From positions 186,001-250,000 of the forward strand of contig NZ_JARGDQ010000003.1 in NCBI RefSeq assembly GCF_029210385.1: a stretch of DNA of 64,000 nt, written 5' to 3'. Origin of the DNA: Desulfurivibrio dismutans (lineage in GTDB: Bacteria > Desulfobacterota > Desulfobulbia > Desulfobulbales > Desulfurivibrionaceae). Position 1 is the first letter of the stretch. Each line of letters opens with the position of its first letter. The position numbers and the translations under genes were made by a program. Under the pieces are notes generated by a model. It saw nothing but the letters and a program-made list of their open reading frames with translations, was not told the origin of the DNA and searched no databases. Below are positions 24,024 to 34,046 of the stretch, piece by piece.

Positions 24024-25832
24024 TCAAAAGGTCATGTGGCGGGCAAATATCCGGTTGAAACGGGGGTAACCGGAAAGCTCCACATGACTGGTCTGTTCCG
24101 CCAACCTTCGGGCCCGCTCCCGCTGACCGGCGGCCAGCAGGATTTTGATCGCCCCCAGGCCGGCGGCATTGCCCACCCCGCTGATCCGCTCGGCCGGAAT
24201 GGGGGGCAGCAAACCGATGGCCAGGGCGTCATCGATGTCGAGAAAGCTGCCGAAAGCCCCGGCGATACTGATCCGGGCCAGTTCGTCAACCGACAGCCCC
24301 GCCTCGGCCAGCAGAATTTCAATCCCGCTGCGGATCGCCGCCCGGGCGATCACCAACTCTTCCCCCAGATCCTTCCAGGTCAGCACCAGTGGCTCGCCGC
24401 CGGCGGTCCGTTCCGCCGGCACCAGTACGATACCTCGGTCGTCGGGCGCCAACAGCCCCGTCGGCAACTCCCCGCGCCGCAAGCCACCCCGCCGGTTGAG
24501 CAGTCCCGCCCGCTTTAAAGCAGCGGCCACCGAAATCAGGCCGGTGCCGGCAATGCCCCGGGCCGGCTGCTCGTCGATGGTGTGACACTGCAGGCTGTTC
24601 TGCGCAAAGACGGCCCGGTCGATGGCCCCCGGCGCGGCCCGCATGCCGCAGCTGATTCGGGCCCCCTCGAAGGCTGGCCCGGCGGCGGCCGAACAGGCCA
24701 GCATTCGGCCCTCCACACTCAGGGCCATCTCGGCGTTGGTGCCCAGGTCGAGCAGCAGGTGGGGTGGCTGGGGCCGGTCAAAATCCAGGGCCAGCAGATC
24801 CGCCACCGCATCGGAGCCGACAAAGCCAGCGATCACCGGCGGCAGGTGCATACGGCCCTCGGGGGCGATCTGCAGCCCCAGCCAGGCGGCGGGCAGTTCC
24901 GGCACCACCTGCAGGGCCGGGGTAAAAGGGGCCACTCCGGCATAATAGGGATCAATACCCAGCAGCAGGCTCTGCATGCAGGTGTTGCCCACCGCCGTTG
25001 CCTCCTGCACATAGCGGGCCGGGATGCCGTGGTCGGCCAGCAGCCGGGCCAGCAGTTCATTGAGGCAGGCCACCGCCGCCTGCTGCAGCTCGACCAGTTC
25101 CCCCTGGTGGGCCCGGTCGATGCGACTCATCAGGTCCTCGCCGAAGGTGACCTGGGGGTTGGTCCGGGCATCCTGGCCCAGCAGGCGGCCGGTGGCCAGG
25201 TCAACCAAGTAGGCGGCCACGGTGGTGGTGCCCAGGTCGAAGGCCACACCATAATGCTCCCCGGCGGTATCCCCCGCCTCCAGGTCAACCAGGCAGCGTC
25301 GGCGCAGAGTGGCGGTCAGTTGCCAATCGGCCTTCCGGACCAGCCGGGGCAGATCGGGCAGCAGCCGCGGGGCGATATCTTCCGCCGCCAGCTGGTGTTC
25401 CTTGAGCGCCTGGTAAATCCGTTCCAGGTCGGCGGTTTGATCGTTGATGGCGGGCGGGGAAAGCCGCAGATATTTTTTCTGGCTGACCGGCTCCACGGCG
25501 ACCTGGTCCAGTTCCATGGCCAGACTGGTTTTATATTCAGCACTCACCGAATTGCCATCCACCAGGCGGATGGTCAGTGATTCCAGAGGAAAGGTCTGAC
25601 AGGCCAGACGGGTGCCGGTGGCCAGCTCGTCGGCGGTAAGCAGTTGCCGCTCCGGCTCGGTGAGCTCACTCACCTGGCCGGCCAGGATTTGGATCTTGCA
25701 TTTGCCGCAGCTGCCTTCACCACCGCAAAGGGACGGCGGGGCAAAGTTGGGCTGACGCTGCAGAGCCGCCAGCAAAGTAAGCTCTGATCCGCAGGGGATC
25801 TTGCGTCTCTGGGGTTCCAGGTAAATAAACAT
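24024..25832 (-). CDS. RACo-like corrinoid-protein activator: N-terminal [2Fe-2S] domain plus ASKHA (DUF4445) domain
   Basis: A 602-residue protein. Residues about 1-85 form a plant-type [2Fe-2S] ferredoxin (PSLCGGEGSCGKCKIQ, then LACQ). After a linker, an ASKHA ATPase module follows: YGVAFDLGTTTVAAYLVDL, the AVGNTCMQSLLLG segment, LLDLGTNAEMALS, GPAFEGARISCGMRA, and IAGAFGSFLDIDDALAIGLLP. RACo-type proteins use ATP to reduce inactive Co(II) corrinoid proteins to Co(I). It is the first gene of the operon with the MttB-like and nitrilase genes. The start at 25832 is chosen for the family N terminus and the nearby AGAGGA; a much longer open frame upstream appears non-coding. Confidence 0.92.
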   Translation of the reverse strand: MFIYLEPQRRKIPCGSELTLLAALQRQPNFAPPSLCGGEGSCGKCKIQILAGQVSELTEPERQLLTADELATGTRLACQTFPLESLTIRLVDGNSVSAEYKTSLAMELDQVAVEPVSQKKYLRLSPPAINDQTADLERIYQALKEHQLAAEDIAPRLLPDLPRLVRKADWQLTATLRRRCLVDLEAGDTAGEHYGVAFDLGTTTVAAYLVDLATGRLLGQDARTNPQVTFGEDLMSRIDRAHQGELVELQQAAVACLNELLARLLADHGIPARYVQEATAVGNTCMQSLLLGIDPYYAGVAPFTPALQVVPELPAAWLGLQIAPEGRMHLPPVIAGFVGSDAVADLLALDFDRPQPPHLLLDLGTNAEMALSVEGRMLACSAAAGPAFEGARISCGMRAAPGAIDRAVFAQNSLQCHTIDEQPARGIAGTGLISVAAALKRAGLLNRRGGLRRGELPTGLLAPDDRGIVLVPAERTAGGEPLVLTWKDLGEELVIARAAIRSGIEILLAEAGLSVDELARISIAGAFGSFLDIDDALAIGLLPPIPAERISGVGNAAGLGAIKILLAAGQRERARRLAEQTSHVELSGYPRFNRIFARHMTF

Positions 25833-25932
25833 CGTCCTCTTATAGCACACTTTCAGCGGCCCGGCAAAAAGGGAGACGGTACCCGCAGGCTGCCGCCCGG
25901 CGGTCGCATTTGCCCGCGGGGCGGAAAACCGT

Positions 25933-27084
25933 TCAGTACATCTCGTAACAGGCCGCCACGCCTTCCAGGCCGCCGTTGTTAAGTTTCTTCTTGCGGCTGG
26001 GTTTGAGCCCGATTTCCTTAAGCAGCCGGGGGTCGCCAAAGTAGAGACAGGCAGTGGAACCGGTACAGTGATGTTTGAGAAAAGAGCCCAGTTCCCGGAC
26101 CAGGGCCACAGCCGCCGCCTGGTCCCCCAGCCGGATCCCGTATGGCGGGTTGGTCACGATTACCGCGTTGTTAATCGGCGGCAAGGCCTGAAGGGGGCAG
26201 ACCTGCAACGCCACCTGGTCCCCCTGGGGCAGCCGGGCCAGATTGCGGCGGGCCATGTGGACCGCCTTTTTCGACTGGTCGCTGCCGGCCAGCAAGCCGG
26301 CCGGTAGGGTCTGCCGGGCGGCATCGGCCTCTTCCCGCACCTGCCGCCAGAGCGGCGGGGAAAAATCCGGCAGGTTATGCAGCCCAAAGCGCCGGCGCAG
26401 TTGGCCGGGGGGGATGTTGGCCCGTCGCAGCAGGGCTTCGGCCAGGATCGTACCGGAACCGCAGAAGGGATCGACCAGCGGCCGGACGCCGTCCCAACCG
26501 GAAAAATCGACCAACGCCGCCGCCAGGGTTTCCTGGATCGGCGCCTCACCGCTGTCTTGGCGGTAGCCGCGGCGGTGCAACGACTCGCCGGCCAGATCCA
26601 GGCTGATCACCGCCCGGTTGCTGCGGATATGCAGATCAAACACCAGGTCCGGCTGCCGCCGGTCAACATTGGGGCGCCCGCCAAGTTGTTGCTGGAAGCG
26701 GTCGACGATGGCGTCCTTCAGGCAGAGGGCCGCGTAACGGGAGTGGCCCACCCGGCTGTCGCTGACCCGGGCGTTGATCTTGAAACTCTGCTCAAGACCC
26801 AGCAGCTTTTCCCAGGGCAGGGCCATGGCGGTCTTATAAAGATACTTGGTGCTGTGACAGGGAAAATGCCGCAGCGGAGCAAGAATTCTGGTGCAGAGCC
26901 GGGTCTGCAGCAAAATTCGATAGAGCACCACCGGTTCGGCATTGAAGTAGACTCCCCGCGGAATGGGATTGAGCCCTTCCGCCCCCCAGGCGGCCAGTTC
27001 GGCGGCGGCCTCCTCTTCCAGGTTTGCCGCCACCTGGGCAAAGTAACCGCCGTTTTGCTGATAAAGAAAGGAATCGTCGCGCAT
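25933..27084 (-). CDS. THUMP-domain class I rRNA/tRNA methyltransferase (RlmL N-terminal/UPF0020 type)
   Basis: A 383-residue RNA base methyltransferase. An N-terminal ferredoxin-like/THUMP region (about 10-155) contains RLCTRILAPLRHF and the VGHSRYAALCLKDAIVDRF stretch. The catalytic Rossmann fold has PLVDPFCGSGTILAEA (SAM motif I), GSDQSKKAVHMARRNL, and the target-base motif IVTNPPYGIRLGD. This layout matches RlmL N-terminal modules that make m2G in 23S rRNA, or related tRNA guanine methylases. The ATG at 27084 has a GGGGTGAG upstream; an in-frame GTG at 27090 is possible. It is divergent from the MamK-like operon. Confidence 0.9.
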   Translation of the reverse strand: MRDDSFLYQQNGGYFAQVAANLEEEAAAELAAWGAEGLNPIPRGVYFNAEPVVLYRILLQTRLCTRILAPLRHFPCHSTKYLYKTAMALPWEKLLGLEQSFKINARVSDSRVGHSRYAALCLKDAIVDRFQQQLGGRPNVDRRQPDLVFDLHIRSNRAVISLDLAGESLHRRGYRQDSGEAPIQETLAAALVDFSGWDGVRPLVDPFCGSGTILAEALLRRANIPPGQLRRRFGLHNLPDFSPPLWRQVREEADAARQTLPAGLLAGSDQSKKAVHMARRNLARLPQGDQVALQVCPLQALPPINNAVIVTNPPYGIRLGDQAAAVALVRELGSFLKHHCTGSTACLYFGDPRLLKEIGLKPSRKKKLNNGGLEGVAACYEMY

Positions 27085-27164
27085 TCTCACCCCGGAGTTA
27101 AAGTTTGGCCGCTAAAGCCGCTGATTATAACGCCCCACCGGCGGCGGCGCATTTCTTTTTGATA

Positions 27165-27193
27165 TTGACATCAAAACAACTTGTAACTAGGAT
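27165..27193 (+). promoter_or_regulatory. Putative sigma-70 promoter of the MamK-like actin operon
   Basis: A perfect TTGACA (27165-27170) is followed, after exactly 17 bases, by TAGGAT (27188-27193). The first actin-like gene starts about 40 bases downstream of the -10, leaving a short leader with AGGAG. Confidence 0.65.
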
Positions 27194-27234: not shown

Positions 27235-28299
27235 TTGGTGATGAGCGAACCGAGCCACGATAACTCCCCGCTCCTGCTGGGAATAAAGCTGGGAACGGCT
27301 TGCACGGCGGTAGTTTCCAGCCGTGGCTATCGACGTCTGACTCCCTCGGTGGTGGGCTACCCCCGAGACATCATCGCCGTCAGGATGCTAGGCAAGACCC
27401 AGGTGTTCGGCGACGAGGCCCTGGCCCACAAATCCGCCCTGGCACTTTATCACCCCCTGCGCGACGGCCTGGCCCAGGATGGCGGCGGCAAACATGACTA
27501 CAACGCCGCCTTCGAACTGCTGCAACAGGTCATCAGCGAGGCCCGCCAGGATGAGGCAGGTGATCTCAGCGCCGTTATCGGAGTGCCAGCCCGGACTTCC
27601 CATACCGCCAGGGCAGCCCTGCAGCATCTGGTCGAACAGTTCTGCCGCAGCGCCCTGATCCTGCCTGAACCCTACCTGATAGCCCACCACCTCAACTGCC
27701 TGGCCAACGGCCTGATCGTCGATATCGGCGCCGGCCATGTTACCGTCTGCGCTGTTAAAGGCGCCGCGCCCCTGCCCCAGGATCAGGCGGTGCTACCCCG
27801 AGCCGGTGATTATCTCGACCAGCAGTTATTGGCCATGGTCAACCAGCACCACCAAGGGGTCCGTATCTCGCTGCCCCAGGCAAGACAAATCAAAGAGCAG
27901 TACGCCTTCGTCGGCGAGCCCCCCGAGCCGGTGCAGGTAACCCTACGGGCCAAAGGCAAACCCGGGCTGTACGACCTTACCGATGAACTGGGCACGGTCT
28001 GTGCCTCGATAATACCGGAGATTACCGAACAACTGGCCGCCCTGCTGCAAAGCTTCGACCCCGAAGATCAGGAAACGGTCCTGGAGCACATCTACCTGAC
28101 CGGCGGCGGCTCCCGCATCCGGGGACTGGCATCGAAAATCGGCGAGGCCTTGAGCGAATACGGGTCGGTAAGTGTCAGTTGCGTTGAAGAACCTGAGTAC
28201 GCCGGGGCCTTGGGGGCCCTGCAACTGGCAACCGAACTGCCGCCGGCCGACTGGCGGGAGTTCGGCCTGGCCAGCCGGCTCCCGGAAACCGGGATCTGA
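27235..28299 (+). CDS. MamK-like actin homologue 1, with substituted nucleotide-binding residues
   Basis: A 354-residue actin/Hsp70-fold protein whose whole length follows magnetosome actin MamK: SVVGYPRDIIAVRMLG, FGDEAL, YHPLRDG, VIGVPARTS, EPYLIAHHL, IVDIGAG, QIKEQYAFVGEPPEPVQV, LLQSFDPEDQETVLEHIYLTGGG, SRIRGL. Unlike its partner at 28911 it lacks the phosphate-1 Asp (GIKLGT, K18) and has H168 and T170 where the partner has Thr and Asp in the phosphate-2 loop. It may be a weak or non-catalytic ATPase. The TTG at 27235 is 8 bases after AGGAG; GTG 27238 and ATG 27241 are alternatives. Confidence 0.87.
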   Translation: MVMSEPSHDNSPLLLGIKLGTACTAVVSSRGYRRLTPSVVGYPRDIIAVRMLGKTQVFGDEALAHKSALALYHPLRDGLAQDGGGKHDYNAAFELLQQVISEARQDEAGDLSAVIGVPARTSHTARAALQHLVEQFCRSALILPEPYLIAHHLNCLANGLIVDIGAGHVTVCAVKGAAPLPQDQAVLPRAGDYLDQQLLAMVNQHHQGVRISLPQARQIKEQYAFVGEPPEPVQVTLRAKGKPGLYDLTDELGTVCASIIPEITEQLAALLQSFDPEDQETVLEHIYLTGGGSRIRGLASKIGEALSEYGSVSVSCVEEPEYAGALGALQLATELPPADWREFGLASRLPETGI

Positions 28300-28329
28300 A
28301 ATTCACTCTAACCGGAGCAGGGCACCAGC

Positions 28330-28899
28330 ATGGAACCATACTTGACGATTTCGCTCTTGATCCTTGGCGGCGTGGCGGGAACCGGCTTTTCCTGGCTGTA
28401 CTGGCAGCATCGTCTGCGCCGGATGGAAGAACAGGCCCAGGAGGCGGAAGAGGGAGCCCGCCGCTCCCTCAAGGAGATGATGGAAAAAAACCGTCAACTG
28501 GAAGAAGAGGTATTTGCCGGCAAGAAAGATATTGATCTGCGGCTGGAACAGTTGAGCGCCGCCAGCCGGCAGATCGCCTCCCTGGCCGAAGAACTGCAGA
28601 ACGCCCACCGCCAGTACCGTGAAATCAGCGAACAGATCCGAGCCGTCGAGCAAAAAATGCATGACAGCGCCATGGACCTGGCCCGTATTCCCACCCTGGA
28701 AGAAACCCTGGCGGCAAAGGAAGCCGAACTGGAGCAGCGGCAGCGCGAGATTGCCGCCCTCAACACCGCCAAAAGCGAATTGGCAGAGACCCTGGCCGAG
28801 GAAAAACGCTCCCTTGACGAGTGTATCATATATGTGGAAGGCAGCCATTATCTGCCGGGAAGGGTCGTCCGCAACCTGACCGGCGCCAAACAACCCTGA
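28330..28899 (+). CDS. Membrane-anchored coiled-coil protein between the two MamK-like actins
   Basis: A 189-residue protein of no recognised family. Residues about 5-24 form one hydrophobic helix (LTISLLILGGVAGTGFSWLY), followed by a basic stop (QHRLRRMEEQ). Residues about 30-165 are rich in Glu, Gln, Arg, Leu and Ala with heptad-like spacing, a long predicted coiled coil facing the cytoplasm. The short tail (YVEGSHYLPGRVVRNLTGAKQP) is not helical. It lies 30 bases after actin 1 and 11 bases before actin 2. By position I infer a membrane tether or regulator for the filaments. Confidence 0.75.
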   Translation: MEPYLTISLLILGGVAGTGFSWLYWQHRLRRMEEQAQEAEEGARRSLKEMMEKNRQLEEEVFAGKKDIDLRLEQLSAASRQIASLAEELQNAHRQYREISEQIRAVEQKMHDSAMDLARIPTLEETLAAKEAELEQRQREIAALNTAKSELAETLAEEKRSLDECIIYVEGSHYLPGRVVRNLTGAKQP

Positions 28900-28910
28900 G
28901 GACTCGGACG

Positions 28911-30044
28911 ATGACGATACTGGAACAGGAAGAAAACATCAGACAGGATCAGGAAGACAGCGCACAGGAAGCCATGGAACAGGAGACCGCCACCCACGGC
29001 CGGCCGGCGCCCGCGCCAACGGCCGGGAATCAGACCCTGGTGGGCATCGATCTGGGAACCTGCCGCACGGTGGTGATCGGTGCCGACGGCCAGGAACTGG
29101 AAATCCGTTCGGTGGTCGGCTACCCCAAAGACATCATCAGCCGCCAAGCCGTCGGCGACGGGCCGCTGTTCGGCCACGAGGCCCTGGAAAAACGCAATTT
29201 TCTTGAACTGTGCTATCCCCTGGCGGAAGGGGTAATCCGCGATGCCAGCGAACGCGACTACCAGGCGGCCCGGGAACTGATCCATCATGTGGTGGCCGGC
29301 ATCAAGGAAAACAGCGGCGGCGGGCCCGTCAGCGGCATTATCGGGGTTCCCGCCCGGGCCTCGCTGATGAACAAGGAAGTGCTGCTCCAGGTGGCCCGGG
29401 AGGTGATGGATACCACCCTGGTGGTCTCCGAGCCCTTCATGGTCGCCTACGCCCTGGGCAAACTCAACCGCTGCATCATCGTCGATATCGGCGCCGGCAC
29501 AGTGGATGTCTGCTGCATGAAAGGATCGGTGCCCGCCCCCGAGGACCAGGTCACCACCTTCAAGGGCGGCGATTACCTGGACGAAAGGCTGGAGGCCGCC
29601 ATTCTGCGGCGTCATCCCGGGGTCCAGATCACCCGCTCCCTGGCCTGCCGGATCAAGGAGGAACACGCCTTTGTCGGCGAGCCGGAACGGCCGGTGGAGG
29701 TAACCCTGCGGGTGGACGGTAAACCGGTGCGTTTTGATGTCACCGAGGAGCTCCGCACGGTGTGTGAGAGCATGGTGCCCAACATTGTCGAACAGGTGGA
29801 GACCCTGATCGCCTCCTTCGACCCGGAAGACCAGGAAGAAACCTTAAAGAATATCTACCTGGCCGGTTGCGGCTCCCGCATCCGCGGCCTGGACCGGATG
29901 CTCACCAACGCCCTGCAGGACTACGGCGACGTGCGGATCACCTGCGTCGATGACCCGGAACGGATCGGGGCCAAAGGGGCCTTGAAGCTGGCCCTGGAAG
30001 TGCCGCCGGGGCACTGGCCCGAAATCGGTCTTATGTTTGGGTAA
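28911..30044 (+). CDS. MamK-like actin homologue 2, with canonical nucleotide-binding motifs
   Basis: A 377-residue actin-like protein matching MamK closely from residue 45: GIDLGTCRT (phosphate 1, D47), SVVGYPKDIISRQAVG, FGHEALEKR, YPLAEGVI, IIGVPARASLMNKEVLLQ, VVSEPFMVAYALG, IIVDIGAGTVDVCCMKG (phosphate 2), VPAPEDQVTTFKGGDYLDER, IKEEHAFVG, YLAGCGSRIRGL (adenosine). A 42-residue acidic, Gln/Glu-rich then Pro/Ala-rich N-terminal extension precedes the fold. It should bind ATP and polymerise. AGGA lies 8 bases before the ATG. Its TAA stop is part of the arm of a perfect 31-bp inverted repeat. Confidence 0.9.
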   Translation: MTILEQEENIRQDQEDSAQEAMEQETATHGRPAPAPTAGNQTLVGIDLGTCRTVVIGADGQELEIRSVVGYPKDIISRQAVGDGPLFGHEALEKRNFLELCYPLAEGVIRDASERDYQAARELIHHVVAGIKENSGGGPVSGIIGVPARASLMNKEVLLQVAREVMDTTLVVSEPFMVAYALGKLNRCIIVDIGAGTVDVCCMKGSVPAPEDQVTTFKGGDYLDERLEAAILRRHPGVQITRSLACRIKEEHAFVGEPERPVEVTLRVDGKPVRFDVTEELRTVCESMVPNIVEQVETLIASFDPEDQEETLKNIYLAGCGSRIRGLDRMLTNALQDYGDVRITCVDDPERIGAKGALKLALEVPPGHWPEIGLMFG

Positions 30045-30107
30045 ACTTGTCGCAGCACCGCAGATTCGGGCTGATCGCCCGAATCTGCGGTGCTGCGACA
30101 AGTTTAC
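30041..30107. repeat. Perfect 31-bp inverted repeat overlapping the actin 2 stop codon (copy E)
   Basis: Arms 30041-30071 and 30077-30107 are exactly complementary over 31 bases around the 5-base loop TGATC. The outer end is GTAAACTTGTCGCAGCACCG, so the TAA stop of the actin 2 gene lies inside the arm. The arm shares its sequence style with the longer dispersed elements. It has no T tract directly after the stem but could still block RNase or pause transcription. Confidence 0.95.
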
Positions 30108-30259
30108 CTGCCTGGCTCCCTTTGTTTTTTTCTTTGTTTTATCCCCGTTTATCTCGTTCTGTTCAGCGGTTAATTAGTGACTTTTTGGGGGGCTCTTTTG
30201 GGGGGAGATGTGCGCAAGAGAGCGCCGGGCGGGGATTATTTGGCCGCGATTGGGTTGCT

Positions 30260-31339
30260 TCAACCTGTTTGGGGATGTTCCACGGGTTCCTGATCCGGGG
30301 TACGGGGCCAGCAGAGGATGACCGCGTTGATTAGGGTGGCCAGAGGGATGGCGAAGAAAATGCCCCAGAAGCCCCAGAGGCCGCCGAAGACCAAGATGGC
30401 GGCGATGATCGCCACCGGGTGGAGATTGACCGCCTTGGAGAAAAGCAGCGGGTTGAGCACGTTGCCGTCCAGTCCCTGGATGATCCCGTAGATCGCCAGC
30501 AGCCAGAACAGTTCCCCGTCGATCCCCCACTGAAAGTAACCAATCAGGGCCACCGGAATGGTGACCACCACCGCCCCTACGTAGGGCACCAGCACCGACA
30601 ACCCGGTCAGGGTGGCCAGCAGCAGAGCATACTCAACCCCCAGCAGGGTAAAGCAAAGGTAAGTCACCACCCCGACAATCATGATCTCCCAGAACTTGCC
30701 CCGCACGTAATTGCCCATCTGCACATCCAGATCGCGCCACAGATACTGGGCGGCGCTGCGTTCCCGAGGCAGCCGCAGGTTGACCCATTCCAGGATGATT
30801 TTTTTGTCTTTGAGGAAAAAAAAGACCAGAAAAGGGACCAGGATCAGATAGACCAGCAGGGTGACCAGGTTGGCCACCGAGGCCAGAGAGATGGCCAGGA
30901 TCCGCTGTCCCAGGGTACCCACCTGGTTGCGGACGGTGTTGGCGATCTCGCGGACCTGTTCTTCGGTGATCACCGGATAACGCTCCGGCAGGTTCAGCAG
31001 TGCCTGCTGCCCTCTGGCGATGTAATGGGGAAGTTCTTTGAACAGATCGGAAATCTGGGTCCAGAGCAGGGGGAAAAAGGCAAAAGAGCCGACTAAAACC
31101 AGCAGGATGAACAGCACCAGAACAAAACTGACCCCGAAAATCCGCCGCACCCCCTTGCCTTCCATCCAGGCAATGGGTCCTTCCAGCAGATAAGCGATGA
31201 TGATGGCGGTGAGCAGGGGGGCCAGCATCCGGCCAAAAAAGAGCAGCACAAAAGCGCCGATCAGCAGCAGGAAGGTCAGAATCACCGCCTGAGGATCGCT
31301 GAAATAACGCCGGTGCCAGAGCCGCAACATGGCAAGCAT
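30260..31339 (-). CDS. AI-2E-family (PerM/TqsA-like) membrane transporter
   Basis: A 359-residue polytopic membrane protein. Paired helices near residues 18-60, a helix at about 70-95, a polar segment (about 95-140), then about five further helices. Family signs are LTAIIIAYLLEGPI near the N terminus, PFLVFFFLKDKK in the middle, and LLATLTGLSVLVPYVGAVVVTIP followed by DGNVLNPLLFSKAVNLHPV near the C terminus. Members move small molecules or ions; the substrate cannot be told. Start at 31339; ATG at 31330 is an alternative. It faces the actin operon tail-to-tail. Confidence 0.88.
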   Translation of the reverse strand: MLAMLRLWHRRYFSDPQAVILTFLLLIGAFVLLFFGRMLAPLLTAIIIAYLLEGPIAWMEGKGVRRIFGVSFVLVLFILLVLVGSFAFFPLLWTQISDLFKELPHYIARGQQALLNLPERYPVITEEQVREIANTVRNQVGTLGQRILAISLASVANLVTLLVYLILVPFLVFFFLKDKKIILEWVNLRLPRERSAAQYLWRDLDVQMGNYVRGKFWEIMIVGVVTYLCFTLLGVEYALLLATLTGLSVLVPYVGAVVVTIPVALIGYFQWGIDGELFWLLAIYGIIQGLDGNVLNPLLFSKAVNLHPVAIIAAILVFGGLWGFWGIFFAIPLATLINAVILCWPRTPDQEPVEHPQTG

Positions 31340-32121: not shown

Positions 32122-33396
32122 TTAAACGGCGCGGGGGCCCGACGCCGATTGACTACGACCCTGGCGGCGGGGCCGAGCCGAGGTACCGGGACGGCGGGAG
32201 GCCGGCCGGGAATCAGGCCGGGAGCCGGGCCGTCGACCTCGGGGCGGCGGCGCCGCCTGGTCCGGCTCACAGGGAACCAGCGCTTCCAATTGCCGCCGCT
32301 CTATGCTCTTACCCAGCCCTCGTTCAATGGCCCGAATCAGAGTCTGGTCTTCCTGCAGCACCAGGCTGAAAGCGGCGCCCTGGCGCTGGGCCCGGCCGGT
32401 ACGGCCGATCCGGTGGGTATAGGCCTCGGCGGTGTTGGGCATATCGTAGTTGATCACATGCGAAACCTTGGCCACATCCAGTCCGCGGGCGGCGATATCG
32501 GTGGCGACCAGAATGGTGAAAGTGCCATCGCGAAAGCCATCCAGAGCAGCCTGGCGCTTGTTCTGCGACATGTTGCCTTGCAGATCGGAAGCCCGATGCC
32601 CGGCGGCATTAAGCCGACGGGCCAGCTTCTTGGCCCCGTGCTTGGTGCGGGTGAACACCAGGGCCGACCGCACCGGGTTTTCCGCGTTTTCCGCCAGCAG
32701 GGTCAACAGCATGGCGGTCTTCTGCTTGGCCTCCACCGGATAAAGAGCCTGGCTGATGGTGGCCGCCGGCTGGTCGCAGGCAATCCTGACCTCCTGGGGA
32801 TCAACCAGAAGTTCCCCCGCCAGCCGGCGGATATCTGCGGGCATGGTGGCGGAAAACAGCATGTTTTGCCGCTTTGCCGGCAGGTAGCGCATAATGCGTC
32901 GAATATCCGGCAGAAAACCCATGTCGAACATCTGATCTCCTTCGTCCATGACCAGCACCTCTACCCCGTCCAACTTGATGGCCCCTTCCCGCAGGTGGTC
33001 GAGCAGCCGGCCGGGACAGGCGACGATAATTTCCACTCCCCGCCGCAGCTGGGCCAGCTGGCTGTTTTTACTGACACCACCGTAAACCGCCACCGTCCGC
33101 AGGCCGGTTTTACTGCCCAATTCCCGGGCAGCAACCGCAATCTGCTCGGCCAGTTCCCGGGTCGGGGCCAGTACCAGGGCCCGGACCCTTCCTTTGGGGC
33201 CACTCAACAGGCGCTGCAGGATGGGCAGCACAAAGGCCGCAGTCTTGCCGGTGCCGGTTTGGGCCAGCCCCATGACATCCTGACCGGCCAGTGCCGCCGG
33301 CAAGGTCTGCTGCTGGATAGGGGTGGGGGCCTGAAAACCACAGGCGGTGATCCCGGCAGTAATCGCCGGAGCTAGTGAAAATGATGAAAAATCCAT
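32122..33396 (-). CDS. DEAD-box ATP-dependent RNA helicase, RhlE type, with DEGD motif II
   Basis: A 424-residue RNA helicase. Motifs in order: Q motif GFQAPTPIQQQTLP, I AQTGTGKTAAF, Ia PTRELAEQ, Ib CPGRLLDHL, II as DEGD instead of DEAD (32935-32946), III SATMP, IV LVFTRTK, V ATDIAARGLDV, VI HRIGRTGRAQRQG. The C terminus (about residues 365-424) is basic and Pro/Arg/Ser-rich, typical of RNA-binding tails. GGGAGATTTTTTT precedes the ATG at 33396; the longer open frame upstream is probably untranslated leader. Confidence 0.93.
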   Translation of the reverse strand: MDFSSFSLAPAITAGITACGFQAPTPIQQQTLPAALAGQDVMGLAQTGTGKTAAFVLPILQRLLSGPKGRVRALVLAPTRELAEQIAVAARELGSKTGLRTVAVYGGVSKNSQLAQLRRGVEIIVACPGRLLDHLREGAIKLDGVEVLVMDEGDQMFDMGFLPDIRRIMRYLPAKRQNMLFSATMPADIRRLAGELLVDPQEVRIACDQPAATISQALYPVEAKQKTAMLLTLLAENAENPVRSALVFTRTKHGAKKLARRLNAAGHRASDLQGNMSQNKRQAALDGFRDGTFTILVATDIAARGLDVAKVSHVINYDMPNTAEAYTHRIGRTGRAQRQGAAFSLVLQEDQTLIRAIERGLGKSIERRQLEALVPCEPDQAAPPPRGRRPGSRPDSRPASRRPGTSARPRRQGRSQSASGPRAV

Positions 33397-34046
33397 AAAA
33401 AAATCTCCCAAGAGAAAATAAAAAGGCGCCACCCCGGTCGCCCTTGAACGAAAGACGCCGGCCAAGCCGGCAAGAATTCGCGGGTCCAAGATGATTCGCC
33501 AACCGACGGACCGCCTGTGGCAACAGGCAGGATCCGGTGCAGTTGGTCAACAGAAGCAGATGCAGAACAATTGCATTGGTAACAGAGGGGAAATACCAGG
33601 GCAGGTGTATGCAGGAGAGAATCCGTAACTTACTGCACTACGCGTACAAGCCGCTAACACTACCGGGTCCGCCCGAGGTTGGCAAGTAAATAATACTTAC
33701 AGGGCAGTGCAACGGCGGTTTTTTCAGGTTGATAATCAGCCCCGCAACCGCTGGGCGCCACCGTCAACATGGCCAGCACCTTGCGGGCCCGGGACCAGCG
33801 GCAGATCGAACGGATAATGGAGAGCCGGCGGGAGCTCTCCGGTGAAGACGTAATCACCACCAACCCCTCGGCTCAGTCCGACCGCAGACCGACAGCGCCG
33901 CTGCCTTAAGTGGAAGAGCCGCGACGTTCAAGTTTTACAGTTGCACTTTGGCAACCGGCTTTGTAAGCTCTCGCGGGGACTACCGTTCCCCTGTAACCTC
34001 AAAACTATCAACCGTCATCAACCGGCAACGGATCACGAGGTCGATC
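33397..34046. other. 650-bp region without a confident gene, divergent promoters expected
   Basis: Between the divergent helicase and PhnD-like genes. The helicase leader (minus strand) holds GCCGGCTTGGCCGGC and, closer to the gene, a GC-rich imperfect hairpin ending in GGCGCCTTTTT (33417-33442), which could attenuate transcription. A 46-codon open frame at 33769-33909 (plus) has charged, coding-like composition but no ribosome-binding site. The plus strand also has TTGCAC with a poor -10 (TAAGCT) near 33941-33969. Confidence 0.45.

Follow-up and report, generated by a model that had tools for sequence, protein, structure and literature searches.

What are two MamK-type actins doing side by side where no other magnetosome gene is found around them? 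The question is raised by a three-gene locus in a 64,000-nucleotide stretch of DNA from the sulfur-metabolising bacterium Desulfurivibrio dismutans (contig NZ_JARGDQ010000003.1, positions 186,001 to 250,000 of the forward strand), the whole of which we call the window and in whose numbering positions are given. The locus, which we also call the module, consists of:

27235–28299, forward strand: A1, 354 amino acids (aa), a diverged MamK-family actin, recognised from its open reading frame (ORF) and from profile and PDB matches.
28330–28899, forward strand: CC, 189 aa, with an N-terminal membrane helix, a coiled coil and a conserved C-terminal motif; a candidate membrane tether.
28914–30044, forward strand: A2, 376 aa, an N-terminally extended, canonical MamK-family actin.

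The answer that we favour, with rather more confidence than doubt, is that these genes form a MamK-type cytoskeletal operon that is complete in itself and works outside magnetosome formation. Its membrane-tethered filament would have A2 as the ATPase and A1 as a partner or regulator. Its product is probably a cell-organising filament.

By sequence, the closest protein of known structure to both actins is MamK (PDB 5ljw), matched over nearly the full length with E-values of 5.7e-87 for A1 and 1.4e-107 for A2, and the AlphaFold model of A1 (predicted local distance difference test score 92.4) finds MamK chains as its first fold matches in the PDB. The preliminary description, made from the letters of this DNA, had called both proteins MamK-like over their whole length; this holds as far as the closest structure goes, and needs qualifying for A1, which is changed at nucleotide-site positions (below) and scores 378 bits against the NCBIfam MamK model NF040964, below the cut-off of 400 bits that A2 exceeds with 457. 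Several of the family segments which that description took to be shared are likewise altered in A1, where they read SVVGYPRDI, ILPEPYLI, PQDQAV and DIGAGHVTVC. Passing the cut-off is in itself no proof of a magnetosome role, since 53 of the 257 genomes of the order do so, mostly without sign of magnetosomes. Against the NCBIfam MreB model the two actins reach 58 and 70 bits, below its cut-off of 293; a separate MreB-like gene is encoded on contig C12 of this genome.

An actin-family tree, proposed earlier as a check, leaves neither A1 nor A2 outside the MamK clade. It was built from 95 chosen rows (G, C, L, f and g numbers are our handles for genomes, contigs, loci, families and genera). A contig present both as a named and as an unnamed copy was entered once, and the rows do not include G242, the partial A2 of G245, or many of the f6/f7 loci and of the named loci. 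The A1 and A2 module actins share one 41-row clade (support 100/99), which also holds the magnetosomal MamK of G219 and a lone actin of G044. This clade sits within a 69-row MamK clade (100/100) that includes the magnetosomal MamKs, and the remaining 26 rows, with those of Thiomargarita, Parabeggiatoa and Desulfonema, form a separate clade (100/100). A tree that keeps the other 28 rows of the MamK clade together, with the module outside them, is not rejected by the approximately unbiased (AU) test (p 0.296), so the module is compatible with nesting in the other MamK rows or with a sister position to them, and its nesting inside magnetosomal MamK is not demonstrated. A module clade without the G219 MamK is not rejected either (p 0.168); both groups were defined after the tree had been seen. 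The position of the long rows L044 and L138 is unsure, and rooting on MreB, which gave a branch of 9.8, was dropped and another tree used. Two of the more distant MamK-like actins, at L045:9289-10359 (family f1) and L062:9315-10385 (f15), both on magnetosome-type contigs, group closely together (100/100), a hint of transfer between families. MamK-family actins are also found in L143 and L162, from metagenome-assembled genomes titled Thermoplasmata archaeon and Poseidonia; they may be contamination.

The two actins of the module are unequal at the nucleotide site. We compared the equivalents of MamK D17 (the phosphate-1 aspartate, to which we assign the role that it has in actin), E143, D161, T166 and D168, numbered from alignments with PDB sequences. 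All five are unchanged in 15/15 A2 rows; in A1 they are changed in 6 of 16 rows, belonging to two lineages. One lineage comprises the window and G002, where a lysine stands at the D17 position and T166 and D168 are altered as well (in the window the phosphate-2 threonine has become histidine and the aspartate that follows it threonine, with the E143 and D161 equivalents retained); the other comprises four genomes of genus g55, where lysine replaces E143. None of the eight lone f15 actins in the tree is changed at these positions, and the phosphate-2 aspartate is retained in 31/31 A1 and A2 rows. A cysteine in the phosphate-1 loop (LGTCRT in A2) occurs in 14 of 15 A2 rows and in 0 of 80 others. 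Conservation of A1 is lower than that of A2 in all 91 pairs of 14 genomes, pairs that are not independent of one another. Exchange of either D161 or E143 in MamK is reported to abolish its ATPase activity (PMC5059902).

The actins are separated only by a one-helix membrane protein with a coiled coil, as had been noticed before, and ORFs, hydropathy, periodicity and structural model now agree on this. The hydrophobic stretch of the window's CC starts at residue 5, the sequence has a strong 3.5-residue periodicity, and the model is a single helix from 3 to 164 followed by a β-hairpin and a short helix. An alignment of 22 CC proteins consists of the membrane helix, a variable coiled coil and a C-terminal motif around SHYLPGxVV, in which H173 and P176 are invariant; in 22/22 the hydrophobic helix is followed by two to six lysines or arginines within the next 12 residues. 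Pfam returns only scattered coiled-coil matches on CC. From its sequence and model we read CC as a putative membrane anchor, spacer and binding tail.

How widely is this arrangement kept? MamK-family matches at E 1e-40 are found in 56 of the 257 genomes of the order and in 0/14 controls. The CC profile matches 38 of the 257 at E 1e-5, 26 of them with more than 80 bits; together with G249, whose CC is a partial at a contig edge, this gives 27 CC carriers, every one of them among the 56 genomes with a MamK-family actin. Of the remaining 11 matches one is the remnant in G003 (below). The full trio, two module actins with CC between them, occurs in 17 of the 257 genomes, from families f1 (2), f13 (11) and f14 (4), and 16 of these trios could be read on one contig (in G245 the contig ends within A2, and in G244 the break lies inside CC). 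In a fourth family, f15, one module actin accompanies CC in 10 genomes, with adjacency read in nine and G249 split. The three-gene order, whose conservation in relatives had been posed as a question, is therefore kept across families, and the module persists while its flanking genes vary; no conserved functional neighbours were found across families. By eye, a YgiQ-like gene lies upstream in f13, and HemL-like and ATP-synthase-like genes accompany the module in f15.

Weaker CC candidates were put aside. These are the ten other matches in the order (27–68 bits, in frames of 332–1239 aa) and two long-frame matches, G437 and G493, which a sample of 395 genomes of the phylum searched at E 1e-12 returned beside four known carriers; we presume all twelve to be general or RmuC-like coiled coils. 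Nine of the 80 named MamK-relative loci have CC with more than 80 bits, all of them copies of Desulfobulbales loci that had been read before, and CC-model matches of 18–20 bits in L045 and L062 (magnetosome-type contigs) and in L157 were not counted. In viral contigs one stretch matched a pattern, and no relative was found.

Between the window and G002, which is apparently Desulfurivibrio alkaliphilus AHT2, a cultured, non-motile curved rod (PMC5016858), all three genes are under purifying selection. The nonsynonymous and synonymous rates (dN/dS, NG86 method) are 0.132/0.699 (~0.19) for A1, 0.074/0.538 (~0.14) for CC and 0.067/0.428 (~0.16) for A2, whose values were computed from the GTG start and so take in the stretch that overlaps CC. 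Of the genomes of the genus, these two (G000, that of the window, and G002) have the module intact, and it was not found in G004 (79% complete) or G005 (100% complete). In G003 fragments of A1, CC and A2 follow one another, in that order, within a single 230-aa frame (L184:7795-8487, reverse strand); it may be a decayed trio still in frame, or an assembly error.

Such decay is a point for a rival explanation, which we consider unlikely: that the trio is the remnant of a lost magnetosome island, its filament genes lingering or decaying after a magnetotactic ancestor had given up those for biomineralisation. The preliminary description had seen no other magnetosome gene in the window, and we found none: homologues of MamE, M, N, O, P, A, Q or B were not detected in it at the thresholds used, nor was a magnetosome island. 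The genome-wide search covered MamM, MamQ and MamP, with MamA, B, E, I, N, O and the mad genes not searched genome-wide. MamM has no match at E 1e-45, and MamQ none at E 1e-3, in the window's own genome or in G002. Across the order MamM exceeds its cut-off in one genome of 257 (G219), while MamQ matches below the cut-off appear in 10 of 13 genomes asked and also in 6 of 14 controls, so that such matches mean little. MamP matches in the own genome and G002 are confined to positions 111–205 of 290; the C-terminal part of MamP, presumably the magnetochrome region, is also matched in G001, G014, G219 and G251 and weakly (21.5 bits) in the module carrier G253. Of 25 module loci none has a homologue of MamE, O, M, B, N, P or Q in the stretch examined (up to ~10 kb a side, several contigs being shorter), and the MamA (TPR) model matches in two (34 and 105 bits).

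Magnetosome-type clusters do exist in this order. Hidden Markov models built from magnetotactic loci find magnetosome-type clusters in G001 and G014, of the same family as the window, and in G219 and G251, and clusters have been published for Desulfurivibrionaceae and other Desulfobulbales (PMC7449369); with the G219 MamK in the A1-type clade and the decayed fusion in G003, these are the points in favour of a remnant. However, the MamKs of G001, G014 and the G251 cluster fall outside the module clade, CC matched no examined magnetosome cluster above 20 bits, and genome-wide it has no match in G001 or G014 and one of 29 bits, in a 494-aa frame, in G219. The retention of the trio in three families and of actin with CC in a fourth, and the purifying selection, measured for the window and G002 only, also argue against a lingering relic. 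In G251 the cluster lies on contig C2 with a distant MamK ~20–35 kb away on the same contig, while the actin with CC is on contig C17, and the separate contigs mark the module there as distinct from the other MamK. The clusters of the two genomes of the window's own family are those of L044/L175 and L045/L177. In G001 two MamKs stand next to each other with no CC, and one of them has alanine for E143.

How does the module compare with systems already described? It resembles magnetosomal MamK in closest solved structure (by sequence for both actins, by fold for the A1 model), in clade and in the score of A2, and differs in that no magnetosome genes were found nearby, in having two unequal copies, and in a fixed partner, CC, which was not found beside the examined magnetosomal MamKs. 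Strain AMB-1 also has two related MamKs per cell, both reported to form filaments (PMC2818848), but it is magnetotactic and encodes them on different islands, unlike the shared operon with a third gene found here. In the magnetotactic D. magneticus RS-1 two actins, MamK and Mad28, have coiled-coil Mad partners and divided positioning roles (PMC12748827); those Mad proteins are said in the same source to be without membrane helices, unlike CC.

Mad28 itself is described as 15–17% identical to M. gryphiswaldense MamK, with serine for the phosphate-2 aspartate (PMC10653835), whereas A1 and A2 are 40–44% and 44–55% identical to the compared MamK-clade rows and both keep this aspartate (Mad28 sequences were not among the tree rows). 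This difference bears on a role in cell shape, where the filament would mark or set the curvature of a bent, rod-shaped cell, much as Mad28 runs along the concave side. D. alkaliphilus forms curved rods (PMC5016858) and Mad28 localisation is reported to depend on curvature (PMC12713370), but the module actins are MamK-like and not Mad28-like, and a single cultured carrier offers no contrast in shape, so we give curvature a small chance.

Another actin to compare is Bbp, which is MamK-like and comes from a three-gene cluster of a non-magnetotactic member of the Desulfobulbales (PMC10580974). A function of the Bbp type, in large cells or in intracellular transport, the role suggested in giant cable bacteria, seems to us very improbable for the module. 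Bbp is reported to be accompanied by a hypothetical protein and a Kelch-like protein (PMC10580974), whereas the immediate neighbours in the window are, by Pfam, RlmL-like and an AI-2E transporter, not Kelch; and the Bbp-type rows lie in the separate 26-row clade. We take the Thiomargarita, Parabeggiatoa and Desulfonema rows as Bbp-type because the same paper names Thiomargarita, Beggiatoa and Desulfonema as carriers, an assignment by genus and not by deposited Bbp sequences. BeeR, too, is a MamK-related actin of non-magnetotactic bacteria with an N-terminal extension; it comes from Verrucomicrobiota and is reported to be 25–30% identical to MamK (PMC11929497), and on the NCBIfam BeeR model the module actins reach 189 and 203 bits, below the cut-off of 530. 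Non-magnetotactic relatives of MamK are, with Bbp and BeeR, already published (PMC10580974; PMC11929497).

For the self-contained operon that we favour, the following mechanism can be envisaged. A2 would bind and hydrolyse ATP and build a dynamic filament. CC would be inserted in the inner membrane via its N-terminal helix, with the coiled coil extending into the cytoplasm, and its C-terminal motif would bind the filament, thereby holding the filament to the membrane or to a membrane-bound cargo. A1, a sister actin in which nucleotide-site residues can be lost, may join or cap the filament and set its dynamics or position. Membranes, envelope machinery or another cargo could be positioned in this way, as the preliminary description suggested. 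A paper on inner membranes in Desulfobacterota (PMC9764997), which in the parts available has MamK only in its reference list, is a lead to the cargo, not evidence.

Several observations weigh against this picture. E143 is also missing in 3 of 56 non-module or unassigned rows (L068 Gln, L082 Gln, L044 Ala), so its loss is not special to A1, and the window's A1 keeps both E143 and D161, which makes loss of its ATPase activity less than certain. The tether is less uniform than the alignment suggests: only 18 of the 22 CC proteins are net positive behind the membrane helix, and when four periods are compared 3.5 residues comes out strongest in 18 of 22, the exceptions to this period being L080, L061, L065 and L067 (f15). 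Contact between CC and the actins is suggested by gene order. With two intact copies in five genomes, one decayed and two not found, the module appears dispensable within the genus. One published MamK tree, in the parts of PMC7449369 that describe it, has no non-magnetotactic homologues within MamK clades, which contradicts our placement. We found no experiment on A1, CC or A2 in the literature and no paper describing the trio in its open-licence part, and the main text of two D. alkaliphilus papers (PMC5516251, PMC12545173) holds no actin-like, MamK or cytoskeleton terms.

The layout of the locus suits a single unit of expression. All three ORFs lie on the same strand with gaps of 30 bp (A1–CC) and 14 bp (CC–A2); the A2 ORF as listed starts at a GTG at 28821, inside CC, and the ATG at 28914 is the likelier start. 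A divergent RlmL-like gene lies upstream (25933–27090) and a convergent AI-2E transporter gene downstream (30260–31339), so the trio looks like a separate transcription unit. Two further elements accompany it:

27165–27193, forward strand: sigma-70-like promoter match TTGACA-17-TAGGAT from a consensus scan, 10 of 12 positions matching, which is not proof of function.
30039–30109, forward strand: hairpin of 33 pairs overlapping the A2 stop codon, with a fold of -68.8 kcal/mol (z -12.9).

The first agrees with the single promoter described earlier. Sites with at least 10/12 matches number two in the region, one of them on the coding strand, compared with 0.7 expected from shuffles. The hairpin belongs to the locus and may be a terminator or a mobile end element; its core occurs once within the window, and G002 has at the same place a long inverted repeat with altered letters and an inner insert (read by eye). 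Farther out, the window encodes a RACo-type protein (24024–26039, Pfam) and a DEAD-box-like helicase (32122–33489, by eye), homologues of which occur close to the module in certain other families, which we read as local synteny.

More speculatively, and with the odds in our view against it, the MamK-type actin could be a general organiser of organelles or membranes in non-magnetotactic Desulfobulbales, with a mixed ATPase and pseudo-ATPase filament, a coiled-coil inner-membrane tether with a filament-binding tail, and an undescribed internal structure as its object. The use of MamK as a marker for magnetosome gene clusters has been recommended (PMC7449369), and a conserved operon such as this one would caution against relying on MamK alone for detecting magnetotactic bacteria. 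If our reading is true, an actin that aligns organelles would serve other ends in bacteria without the tested magnetosome genes, one of them apparently a cultured species. The module would then offer a tractable place to seek the cargo and, as a natural series, lineages in which catalytic residues are lost from one of the two actins encoded together.

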